From: Candidatus Moraniibacteriota bacterium
GTDB taxonomy: Bacteria; Patescibacteriota; Minisyncoccia; Moranbacterales; DUUL01
Direction: 5' to 3'
DNA length: 38,953 nucleotides
Assembly (NCBI GenBank): GCA_012841575.1
Contig: DUUL01000039.1
Coordinates: 1-38,953, forward strand
Part shown: piece after piece, positions 21,220 through 26,819 of the stretch
How the letters are laid out: the number at the start of each line of letters is the position of its first letter
Numbering within the stretch: the first letter of the stretch is position 1
Notes under the pieces: model-generated
What the model was told of the DNA's origin: nothing
Database searches by the model: none
The model's input: only the letters and a program-made list of their open reading frames with translations
Translations under genes and position numbers: made by a program

Positions 21220-21247
21220 TTGACAATTTAAATTAATTTGCTACAAT
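21220..21247 (+). promoter_or_regulatory. Strong promoter of the candidate ncRNA
   Basis: A perfect TTGACA (21220-21225), a 16-bp spacer and an extended -10 TGC-TACAAT (21239-21247). No protein gene follows on this strand, so it should drive a non-coding transcript starting near 21254. Confidence 0.7.
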
Positions 21248-21253
21248 CACGTT

Positions 21254-21407
21254 GTTTTAAAATCAGTAAATTGAAAGCTTAATAGTCGACGCAGATTTTT
21301 TGTTAAAAAGAAAGTGCTGTGCTGTTCTTGGGTATTTGGCAAGGCAACCTCCCTCCTACGCTTTGCTAACGATTCCATGAGCAGCACAGCGCTTTTTTGT
21401 TTTTTTA
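21254..21407 (+). ncRNA. Candidate structured small RNA with CCUCC-rich apical loop
   Basis: About 150 nt between a strong promoter and an intrinsic terminator. The 3' half folds into a long hairpin. The lower stem 21312-21327 with 21379-21394 is 16 bp with two G-U pairs. Above an internal loop, an upper stem 21336-21345 with 21360-21369 is 10 bp with two G-U pairs. The 14-nt apical loop AACCTCCCTCCTAC contains CCTCC twice. T6-G-T7 follows. It lacks the SRP RNA tetraloop and internal-loop consensus, and is not tmRNA- or RNase P-like. Alternatively the hairpin is a bidirectional terminator for pth, but a 50-nt structured loop and a dedicated promoter argue against that as its only role. The plus strand is preferred because of the promoter and T tract. 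Confidence 0.6.
21379..21407 (+). terminator. Intrinsic terminator ending the ncRNA
   Basis: The 3' arm of the 16-bp lower stem is followed by TTTTTTGTTTTTTT. In the opposite direction the 5' arm is followed by TTTCTTTTT, so the same structure can terminate pth transcription from the other side. Confidence 0.7.
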
Positions 21408-21429
21408 AGTTCGAGTTTTGTTAAAACTA

Positions 21430-22035
21430 TTAGCTTTTTTCAGATTTATTATAAAGATTACAACTAGTTGAAAATCCTTTTTCTACAAAGCAATCAATTG
21501 ATTTTGTAGCGACTGAAATGGCTTTTTCAAGAATTACTTGATCAGCCTTGGTGATTCTCTTAAGGACTATTTCACCCGCACTTAAAGTGAAATTTGAGTG
21601 GTTTATTGGAGAACGAATGCCAATTTTTAGGCGAGCAAAATCTTTAGTCCCTATGGACTGAATGATGGAACTTATTCCATTGTGTCCTCCAGCACCAGAA
21701 TTCTTAACAAAACGAATTTTGCCCAAAATAAGATCGCTGTCATCTTGAACAATCAAAACATTTTCCAAGGAAACTTTAAAGTAATTAATACAGGCATGTG
21801 TCGCTTGGCCAGAGAGATTCATAAATGTTTGTGGCTTTACTAAGATGATTTGTTTATTATGAGTGGTGATTTCAGCAATTTCGCTATTGAGTTTTTTTGC
21901 AAAAGAAAAGTTAATGTTGGTTGTGCTTTCTCTTAAAAAATCATCTAGCACTAAAAAGCCAAGATTGTGATAGGTCTTTATATATTTTTCTCCGGGATTT
22001 CCCAGTCCGACAATTAGATATTTTTCTTTTTTCAT
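21430..22035 (-). CDS. pth: Peptidyl-tRNA hydrolase
   Basis: 201 aa. It releases tRNA from prematurely dropped peptidyl-tRNA. It has YLIVGLGNPGEKY with the conserved Asn, YHNLGF with the catalytic His, KPQTFMNLSG, and GAGGHNGISSIIQ. The catalytic-Asp motif usually reading HDDLDL is QDDSDL; the Asp is kept but its flanking His is Gln. It starts 7 nt after the LCP gene on the same strand, an unusual partner, and is probably co-transcribed with it. Confidence 0.96.
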   Translation of the reverse strand: MKKEKYLIVGLGNPGEKYIKTYHNLGFLVLDDFLRESTTNINFSFAKKLNSEIAEITTHNKQIILVKPQTFMNLSGQATHACINYFKVSLENVLIVQDDSDLILGKIRFVKNSGAGGHNGISSIIQSIGTKDFARLKIGIRSPINHSNFTLSAGEIVLKRITKADQVILEKAISVATKSIDCFVEKGFSTSCNLYNKSEKS

Positions 22036-23711: not shown

Positions 23712-26700
23712 ATGAAAAGAAAAAAAACTATTCCTAAGTACAATTTCAAGAAAATTGAAAAAAAGTGGCAACAAAAGTGGGAAAAAGAATTGATTTTTTC
23801 TCCCAATATAAAAAAAGCCAAAAAACCTTTTTACAACTTAATGATGTTTCCTTATCCCAGTGCCGAGGGTTTGCATATTGGAGGCTATTTTACTTTCACT
23901 GGAGTGGATACGCTTGGTCGTTATAAGAAAATGCAAGGCTATGACGTGTTTGAGCCGATTGGTTTGGACGGGTTTGGGATTCACAGTGAAAACTATGCAA
24001 TGAAAATTGGGGAGCATATTAAAGATGTTTCTAGGCGTACTGAGAAAAATTTTTATCGACAACTTCGCTTGACGGGGAATATGTTTGATTGGACACGGAC
24101 GGTAGAAACTTATAAGCCAGAATACTATCAATGGACGCAGTGGCTTTTTTTACAAATGTTTAAAAATGGCTTGGCATATCAAAAGAAAGCAAAAGTTAAT
24201 TGGTGCCCAGCTTGCAAAACAGTGCTTTCTGACGAGCAAGTGATTGGCACGCAATGCGAGCGTTGTGAAGCAGTGGTTGAGAAAAAATCACTAAAACAAT
24301 GGTTCTTTAAAATTACTGATTACGCAGAAAGATTAAATAAGAATTTGGACTGGATTGACTGGCCAGAGGACGTGAAGTTAAGCCAACGCAATTGGATTGG
24401 AAGGAGTGAGGGAGCGGAGATTAAATTTAAAGTGCAAATTGAAAAACTAGCCAACCAGCCAACTGGTAAATCAATAAATGAGTTGATTGTTTTCACCACT
24501 CGACCCGATACGCTTTTTGGAGCAACTTATATGGTGATTGCACCAGAACATGAATTGATTAAAAACTTAAAATCCGAAATTAAAAATTATTCTGAAGTGG
24601 AAAAATATGTCAAGAAAGCCCTAAAAAAATCTGAAGAGGAACGTTTGAATGAAAAAAAGGCAAAAACAGGAGTGGAGCTTAAGGGCATTAAAGCAATTAA
24701 CCCAGCAACTAATAAAAAGATTCCGATTTTTGTGGCTGATTATGTTTTAAGTGGTTATGGCACGGGAGCGATTATGGCAGTGCCAGCACACGATGAGCGG
24801 GATTTTGAATTTGCCAAGAAGTATAATTTACCGATTAGAGAAGTAGTTAAGGAAGAGGCTAGTGAAACTAATGACAAGCAAGGACAAGAAGAGAGTTGTT
24901 TTTCTGGAGAAGGAATTGCGATTAATTCTGATTTTATTAATGGCTTGAAAGCTGTTGAAGCAAAAAAAGAAATTATCAAGTGGTTGAGAAAAAATAAAAT
25001 TGGACAAAAGAAAATTACTTATAAACTTCGTGATTGGTGCATTTCTCGTCAGCGCTATTGGGGTCCGCCAATCCCGATTGTTTGGTGTAAGCACTGTGCA
25101 TTAAAACAATTGAAAGAGAGCAAAAAGCCAGTTAAAGTTTTAATTATTCACGGTTTTGAAGCAGATGGAAATAGTAACTGGTTTGGTTGGTTGAAAAAAG
25201 AATTAGAGAAAATTGGTTGTGAGGTTTACAATCCTAGTTTGCCAAATACTTTGCATCCTAAGTCAGAAGAATGGAGGAAGGCACTGCAACCATATTTAAA
25301 GAAGTTAGATGAAAATAGTGTGATCATTGGGCACAGTTTGGGTTCAAAAGCAACGGTAGATTTGCTAAGTGCAGCTGATAAGAAAATCAAACAAGTTTTT
25401 CTAGTGGCGTCAGCTCTAGGCAATCCTAGGCGAGATTGGGCGAAGATGAAAGCTGAGTGGATTGGGTCTGACGTTGATGCATTGAAAAAGTTTTGGGAAA
25501 AGAAAGTTGATTGGAAAAGGGTTAATGAGAACATTGTTGGCAAAACGCATATCATTTTTTCTGAAGATGATCCGCACATTGATCCAGAACATTACAAGAT
25601 AGTTAAATTGGAAGATTTGGAGATTCAAAGATGGAGTGGACATCAGCATTTTGTTCAATTTCAAAATGAGAAATTAAGAGACTATGTTATTGCTAGAATT
25701 TTGGAAGAAGTTAGGCCGCTTTCAGTGGCAGTGCCAGAAAAGGAGTTGCCAGTGAAATTGCCACCAATGGAAGATTTTTTGCCGGAAGGAACAGGGAAGG
25801 GGCCACTAGCAAAGAATGAAAAATTTGTGCGAACTAAATGTCCAGCTTGTGGAGCAGAAGCGGAGCGAGAAACTGATGTGTCAGATGCCTTTTTAGACAG
25901 TGCTTGGTATTTCTTGCGTTATCCTTGTACAGATTTAAAATCCAAACCTTTCGATAAAACACGATTGAAAAACTGGTTGCCAGTAACTAGTTATATTGGT
26001 GGCAAGGAACACGTAGTTTTACATTTACTTTATTCACGGTTTGTTAATATGGCACTCAAGGATTGGAATTTTTTGGATAATGAAGAGCCTTATCAAAAAT
26101 TTGTCGGTCATGGATTGATCACTAAAGACGGGGCAAAAATGAGCAAATCAAAAGGCAATGTGATTAATCCAGATGAAATGGTTGAAAAGTATGGCACGGA
26201 TACAGTGCGACTTTATTTGCGTTTTATGGGGGATTTTACTCAAGGAGGAGATTGGAGTGATAGCGGAGCAGAAGGAATGAAGCGTTTTGTGGAGAGATTG
26301 TGGCGGACTTTTTTCTTGCTCGATTCAGTTAGTGGAGTTGGGGTGAAAAATCTTTCAATGCTAGATAAGACTATCAAGTCTGTAGGGGAAGATATTGAGA
26401 AGCTTTCTTTTAATACAGCGGTGGCGCGATTGATGGAATTGATCAATTGGATTAGTGATAATTTAGAGAATTTTAATCAAAAAGAAGCGGAGAAAATTCA
26501 AAAAACAGTTGCTCTAGTTGTTGCTCCATTGGCACCGCATATAGCCGAGGAATTTTGGTTGAGTTTAGGTAATAAAAAATCAATTTTTGGTCAGGCTTGG
26601 CCAAAGTATGATCCAAGGAAAATTGTAGATGAGAGTTTTGAATTAGTGATTCAAGTCAATGGCAAAGTGAGAGATAGGTTTGTGGTGAATAAAAATATTT

Positions 26701-26819
26701 CTGAAAGTGAAGCGACGGCATTGGCATTGGAAAGTGAAAAAGTTCAGAATCATCTTGCTGGCAAAACGCCCAAGAAAGTGATTTATATCAAGGGGCGGTT
26801 GGTTAGTGTGGTAATTTAG
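23712..26819 (+). CDS. leuS: Leucyl-tRNA synthetase with inserted serine-hydrolase domain
   Basis: 1035 aa class I synthetase charging tRNA-Leu; about 190 residues longer than usual. The catalytic core has HIGG (55-58, in place of HIGH) and KMSKS (809-813). Zn ribbon 1 is CPAC...CERC (~171-190). The CP1 editing domain keeps TTRPDTLFG and MAVPAHDERD. After YWGPPIPIVWCKHC the second zinc ribbon is interrupted by residues ~470-666: VKVLIIHGFEADG, GHSLGS (S542), SEDDP (D619/D620) and SGHQHF (H644/H646). This is an RBBP9/YdeN-type alpha/beta hydrolase with an apparently complete triad. The synthetase resumes at RPLSVAVPEKELPVKLP, then CPAC, RETD and the anticodon and C-terminal domains. The frame is open throughout and the insert is separately annotated. 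Confidence 0.95.
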   Translation: MKRKKTIPKYNFKKIEKKWQQKWEKELIFSPNIKKAKKPFYNLMMFPYPSAEGLHIGGYFTFTGVDTLGRYKKMQGYDVFEPIGLDGFGIHSENYAMKIGEHIKDVSRRTEKNFYRQLRLTGNMFDWTRTVETYKPEYYQWTQWLFLQMFKNGLAYQKKAKVNWCPACKTVLSDEQVIGTQCERCEAVVEKKSLKQWFFKITDYAERLNKNLDWIDWPEDVKLSQRNWIGRSEGAEIKFKVQIEKLANQPTGKSINELIVFTTRPDTLFGATYMVIAPEHELIKNLKSEIKNYSEVEKYVKKALKKSEEERLNEKKAKTGVELKGIKAINPATNKKIPIFVADYVLSGYGTGAIMAVPAHDERDFEFAKKYNLPIREVVKEEASETNDKQGQEESCFSGEGIAINSDFINGLKAVEAKKEIIKWLRKNKIGQKKITYKLRDWCISRQRYWGPPIPIVWCKHCALKQLKESKKPVKVLIIHGFEADGNSNWFGWLKKELEKIGCEVYNPSLPNTLHPKSEEWRKALQPYLKKLDENSVIIGHSLGSKATVDLLSAADKKIKQVFLVASALGNPRRDWAKMKAEWIGSDVDALKKFWEKKVDWKRVNENIVGKTHIIFSEDDPHIDPEHYKIVKLEDLEIQRWSGHQHFVQFQNEKLRDYVIARILEEVRPLSVAVPEKELPVKLPPMEDFLPEGTGKGPLAKNEKFVRTKCPACGAEAERETDVSDAFLDSAWYFLRYPCTDLKSKPFDKTRLKNWLPVTSYIGGKEHVVLHLLYSRFVNMALKDWNFLDNEEPYQKFVGHGLITKDGAKMSKSKGNVINPDEMVEKYGTDTVRLYLRFMGDFTQGGDWSDSGAEGMKRFVERLWRTFFLLDSVSGVGVKNLSMLDKTIKSVGEDIEKLSFNTAVARLMELINWISDNLENFNQKEAEKIQKTVALVVAPLAPHIAEEFWLSLGNKKSIFGQAWPKYDPRKIVDESFELVIQVNGKVRDRFVVNKNISESEATALALESEKVQNHLAGKTPKKVIYIKGRLVSVVI
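25119..25709 (+). other. RBBP9/YdeN-like alpha/beta hydrolase domain inside LeuRS
   Basis: This sub-region of leuS encodes residues ~470-666. It starts with a beta strand and HGF oxyanion-type motif (480-482). It then has WFGWLKKELEKIGCEVYNPSLPNT (W residues and PSLPN typical of RBBP9/YdeN proteins), a nucleophile elbow G-H-S-L-G (S542), an acid candidate in SEDDP and His in GHQHF. The whole small-hydrolase fold is present, not a fragment. It lies between the two CxxC halves of the second zinc ribbon, where related LeuRS have only a short loop. Confidence 0.88.

Follow-up and report, generated by a model that had tools for sequence, protein, structure and literature searches.

What does a near-consensus promoter serve when it leads to no protein-coding gene? 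The question is raised by a site in the window, the 38,953-nucleotide stretch of DNA from a Candidatus Moraniibacteriota bacterium that was analysed here as a whole. The original prediction held that the site drives a new, independent small RNA ending in a hairpin, and that the C-rich loop of this hairpin is displayed like the seed of regulatory RNAs that bind Shine-Dalgarno (SD) sequences. We find that the locus is almost certainly a genuine conserved RNA gene, and that it belongs to a new RNA family, without a known relative, that is widespread in Patescibacteria (the Candidate Phyla Radiation, CPR), a very large branch of tiny, mostly uncultured bacteria. Our best explanation, to which we assign a probability of roughly one half, is an independently transcribed structured RNA whose CCUCCU loop would pair with GGAGG-containing RNA.

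The features of the locus are collected in Table 1. The promoter had been described as near-ideal, and the scan agrees: with a 16-bp spacer and 11 of 12 consensus matches it is the top site of the region. As also stated earlier, it leads to no protein gene, there being no ORF of at least 60 amino acids between 20897 and 21429, and from the promoter geometry the RNA is predicted to begin near 21254. Folding of 21250-21410 gave -53 kcal/mol (z = -4.9), a value that no shuffled sequence equalled. The proposed stems of 16 and 10 bp, with four G-U pairs, proved essentially right, the outer one growing to 20 contiguous pairs when its A-U pairs with the U tract are included. Because the loop and the architecture recur in relatives, as described below, we regard the hairpin as no chance product.

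Table 1. Features of the RNA locus and its convergent neighbour (positions in the window).
Feature	Position	Strand	Basis
-35 box TTGACA	21220..21225	+	promoter scan of window
-10 box TACAAT, with TGC just upstream as extension	21242..21247	+	promoter scan
5' leader, predicted start to hairpin	21254..21307	+	sequence
Outer stem, 5' arm (P1 equivalent)	21308..21327	+	fold; covariation in family alignment A4
Short 4-bp stem, 5' arm with 3' arm	21329..21332 with 21374..21377	+	fold
Inner stem, 5' arm (P2 equivalent)	21336..21345	+	fold; 10 bp
Apical loop AACCUCCCUCCUAC	21346..21359	+	fold; unpaired
Loop core UCCCUCCUA	21350..21358	+	invariant in 8/8 same-family members
Inner stem, 3' arm	21360..21369	+	fold
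Outer stem, 3' arm, reaching into U tract	21379..21398	+	fold
U tract	21393..21406	+	sequence; hairpin and U tract form the intrinsic terminator of the RNA
pth (peptidyl-tRNA hydrolase), convergent neighbour, outside the RNA	21430..22035	-	PF01195, E 2.6e-53; conserved synteny

A separate observation concerns another gene of the window. The leucyl-tRNA synthetase at 23712-26819 (plus strand, 1035 aa) is an unusual fusion with an RBBP9-like serine hydrolase domain (PF06821, residues 476-627, E 6.8e-14), which is inserted between the editing domain and the remaining catalytic part.

Relatives in the family and across Patescibacteria

BLASTN with the window RNA found one relative, in another genus; read on the correct strand, it has a promoter of its own and shares the UCCCUCCUA loop, with stems that covary. 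A first covariance model built from these two sequences picked up the element in one genome of another family (G062) and, within the window's own family, in 8 of 10 genomes; the two same-family genomes without it are 74-76% complete and gave no pth match either. Matches of model R1 in G021, G097, G070, G067 and G068 were weak and were set aside. All eight family carriers have a promoter of their own, with TTGACA or TTGACT at the matching -35 place and the modelled hairpin about 20-60 nt downstream of the -10 box, and in all eight pth lies convergent at the 3' side of the element, the gene on the other side being variable.

The outer-stem sequences diverge strongly among these genera. In alignment A4, 17 of 22 outer pairs have changed on both sides with pairing kept in 93.8% of cells, and the covariation observed over the whole structure was reached by 0 of 500 shuffles, slid structures scoring far lower. 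While the stems have been rewritten in this way, the 9-nt loop core stays unchanged in every member. The compensatory changes that the original prediction had proposed to seek by covariation analysis are abundant.

Using pth as an anchor, we read about 1 kb downstream of this gene in 87 genomes of the order and class, and found hairpins with a (U/C)CCUCCU loop in convergent orientation at 34 loci versus 2 in codirectional orientation. Another 40 genomes of the phylum from outside the class, together with 20 further genomes of the class, yielded 14 convergent hairpins with a strong outer stem and no codirectional one; the RNA is also present in a Kerfeldbacteria genome (L216). The control pth loci from other phyla came from an alignment-based scan of contigs, a scan with a single pth sequence having given no matches, and they contained only two convergent chance motifs and one codirectional one; a third convergent entry among these non-CPR controls (L195) is a record of G125 and was not counted as a chance motif.

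Folding of the relatives revealed a common architecture: a long outer stem P1, mostly of 22-35 bp, encloses a hairpin P2 capped by (A/C)(U/C)CCUCCU(A/U), and a third hairpin P3 usually follows P2. P2 is split by an internal loop with the consensus strands GAA (30 of 46) and AGUA (25 of 46; both in 19 of 46), a loop-E-like arrangement. P3 is absent from the hairpin-only forms of the window's family, G018/G040, G497, G516 and G490. At two loci, L252 (G525) and L274 (G508), an extra hairpin lies 5' of the CCUCCU hairpin rather than 3' of it.

In a sequence-only alignment of 12 diverse members, 20 of 22 pairs show double changes, a result matched by 0 of 500 shuffles. Model R3, which describes the three-way-junction core with P2a, the loop-E-like internal loop and the third hairpin, matched 38 of 380 Patescibacteria genomes, once each and in many families, with E-values down to 3.5e-17, a lower bound given the strict filters and the inability of R3 to see hairpin-only forms, the window's included. 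The 46 members aligned to R3 hold 221 double-change cells, with double changes at 21 of 22 pairs and 95.4% of cells paired versus 31-45% with partners slid; because this alignment was fitted to the model, alignments A8 and A4 test the pairing with less bias. The CCUCCU loop is present in 46 of 46 phylum-wide relatives, and its core is invariant in all 54 aligned copies (these 46 and the 8 of the window's family), the loop flanks varying by lineage. An R3 match in G161 (E 0.0035), on a different contig from pth, was judged a false positive. We also suspected a protein-coding origin for the relatives in G017, G021, G025 and G019, whose reverse strand translates in places, and dropped this idea as the stems covary and R3 matches G017, G021 and G025.

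The window RNA, which has neither a third hairpin nor the loop-E-like motif, gives no match to R3. We place it in the wider family as a hairpin-only form of about 150 nt on the basis of synteny, promoter, loop and the intermediate hairpin-only forms; it lies convergent downstream of pth and carries both a sigma-70-like promoter and a CCUCCU loop on a covarying stem. Family f5 and others include three-hairpin and single-hairpin forms at the same pth-side place. Loss of P3 is the simpler account of the window form; in principle, one RNA could instead have been replaced by another with the same loop.

Transcription and the position beside pth

In the 110 nt upstream, 44 of 54 RNAs have a sigma-70-like site that matches the consensus at 10 or more of 12 positions, versus 4.6% of shuffles, and TTGACA is exact in most of these promoters; on the far side, a site of this strength occurs in 2 of 54. 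Within 90 nt downstream, a terminator-like hairpin is found in 22 of 46 cases, versus 3.9% in shuffles. Because promoters upstream and terminators downstream both exceed shuffles, the RNAs read as discrete transcription units, which are probably strongly expressed; promoters of this strength suggest an abundant, housekeeping-like RNA.

The constancy of the neighbour invites the view that the hairpin is a cis element of pth, either a bidirectional terminator or an antisense 3' regulator of its mRNA. The RNA is always convergent to pth, which was recognisable within 1.5 kb at 23 of 30 R3 loci, in convergent orientation in 23 of 23 and 45-1109 nt away, and the window's hairpin, read on the minus strand, likewise ends in T-rich sequence. 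A shared terminator, however, requires neither a promoter nor an invariant loop, and the promoter is found on one strand only. The distances to pth, moreover, range overall from overlap to more than 1 kb, and many copies have a separate terminator. We therefore consider a cis element of pth unlikely. The original prediction had named a mere terminator of pth as the outcome that would undo it; the hairpin is more than that: each of the 8 family members and most relatives have a promoter for it, its loop is conserved, and in many relatives it lies hundreds of bases from pth with a downstream terminator of its own.

Regulation of pth through an SD sequence was likewise rejected, GGAGG lying upstream of pth in only 1 of 46 genomes; in the window, AGGAGGGA about 36 nt upstream of pth is not conserved. 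As a side observation, a TATAAT-like box stands a few nt before the pth ATG at L311, L318, L321, L327, L330, L334 and other loci, and because of this spacing we suggest that pth mRNAs may be leaderless in many Patescibacteria.

The same promoter data bear on which strand is read. The reverse complement of the RNA also folds as a hairpin, which would show UAGGAGGGA in its loop, and models R1 and R2 weakly score the antisense strand too, so one might imagine a GGAGG-loop hairpin that sequesters CsrA-like proteins or 30S subunits. Promoters and terminators, however, lie consistently on the CCUCCU strand, and the loop-E-like motif reads correctly on that strand only, leaving a functional opposite strand highly improbable.

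Comparison with known RNA families

At the gathering score, no family of Rfam 15 overlaps the RNA in the window or in the relatives tested; the Rfam search suggested with the original prediction returned, at that threshold, only a distant tRNA in the window. At a permissive threshold mir-3660 appeared, with 28 bits against a cut-off of 70; this match, isrK and other Rfam matches were rejected as far below cut-off or not overlapping.

Could the RNA nevertheless be a familiar housekeeping RNA, 6S (RF00013) or the bacterial small SRP RNA (RF00169), that has diverged beyond the reach of Rfam? Like these, it is a single-copy, widely conserved bacterial RNA gene with a strong promoter, and in six genomes of the same family the 6S and SRP models gave no match, whereas control genomes did. 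The consensus features differ, however: alignment A10 has no 6S central bubble in its consensus, the aligned family lacks the GNRA-capped tetraloop domain of SRP helix 8, and neither RNA has a three-way junction with a C-rich loop. Even at a permissive E-value no overlapping Rfam match to either appeared, and we think a diverged 6S or SRP RNA very unlikely. As an observation apart, the SRP RNA of the window's lineage may itself have diverged or been lost.

The closest functional analogy is with the RsaE/RoxS family of Firmicutes, whose hairpins expose C-rich stretches able to pair with G-rich ribosome binding sites, as reported for RsaE (PMC4409812). These RNAs have their own promoter and a length of about 100-200 nt, and IsrR and LhrC are others of the same style. 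The family described here likewise exposes a C-rich loop complementary to the SD sequence, the CCUCCU being unpaired in the fold and conserved. The species that carry the RsaE-style RNAs, though, use SD sequences widely whereas the genomes studied here hold few, and in the present family one invariant CCUCCU loop caps a long covarying stem, a design kept across much of a phylum; no Rfam match points to homology between the two. The loop also shares its CCUCCU letters, and often a UA or A after them, with the anti-SD (CCUCC) 3' tail of 16S rRNA; it sits, however, in a closed hairpin of a small RNA distinct from the rRNA, and neither h45 nor the GAUCA element accompanies it. Finally, the opposed 5'-AGUA-3' and 5'-GAA-3' internal-loop strands of the wider family resemble those of loop E (bulged-G) RNAs such as T-box Stem II, the module sequence being defined in PMC4695836; this module alone is shared, and it is absent from the window's hairpin-only version. 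The mode of action may be of a known kind. In the open-access literature we found no description of the RNA, and an earlier one in subscription papers or preprints is possible.

The CCUCCU loop in genomes with few Shine-Dalgarno motifs

How common are the sequences with which such a loop could pair? In the window's own genome (the window and L340-L359, 228 kb), 10 of 179 ORFs are preceded by an SD motif of at least 4 nt (3 strong, 7 of 4 nt), versus about 14% of random positions, figures that are approximate because ORF starts were set by a simple rule. ORFs with some SD thus amount to 5-6% here, compared with 64% in a Bacilli control, and the SD content of related loci is similar or only slightly higher. 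SD motifs are apparently avoided in this genome, and their being rarer upstream of ORFs than at random positions suggests SD-independent initiation in the window's lineage. The strong SDs precede unrelated ORFs. One ORF with a signal-peptide-like start and a strong SD (AAAAGGAGGAATT), at L346 (G000 contig C3), lies on a small contig that differs from the rest of the genome and may be a contaminant of the assembly.

This scarcity divides the earlier suggestion that the loop acts like those of SD-binding RNAs. By shape and sequence the comparison is reasonable, but general SD blocking is unlikely, because in SD-poor genomes such an RNA would have few targets; an action on selected targets, or a mimicry of the 16S tail, is more probable. 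In the mechanism that we favour, the stems would serve as a scaffold presenting CCUCCU as a pre-ordered loop, and these letters, which are those of the 16S anti-SD core, would base-pair with single-stranded GGAGG-containing RNA. Because these genomes hold so few SD motifs, the RNA would most likely mask the start regions of a few mRNAs, either SD-bearing or G-rich, rather than act on translation overall. We put pairing as the mechanism at about even odds.

A second possibility, which we hold only tentatively, is that the loop mimics the 3' tail of 16S rRNA for a protein or assembly factor, the RNA titrating, storing or helping to recycle a 30S binder of the anti-SD region. A core that is invariant between lineage-specific flanks would suit such a role, as would genomes that leave few mRNA partners, and internal loops of the loop-E-like type often serve for protein or tertiary contacts. 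Most CPR lack Era (PMC10582724), which binds GAUCACCUCC; its absence implies unusual handling of the 16S tail in these bacteria and makes the mimicry worth testing. The flanks of the loop, however, hold no copy of the GAUCA part of the 16S tail. Selective pairing with a few SD-bearing or G-rich mRNAs remains our first choice, ahead of a 16S-tail mimic aimed at a protein.

A structured RNA that is found across many families of Patescibacteria, with near-consensus promoters and fixed synteny, likely does something basic. It is conceivable, though we would not count on it, that this is an abundant housekeeping-type RNA that imitates the 16S 3' tail and influences how ribosomes assemble or choose start sites; if so, it would be a trans-acting counterpart of the anti-SD in cells that have largely given up SD sequences and, by the literature, mostly do without Era. 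The models and alignments ease both annotation of the RNA and the search for it in existing metatranscriptomes. A copy of the anti-SD in SD-scarce genomes makes testable how these bacteria start translation and how they handle the 16S tail.
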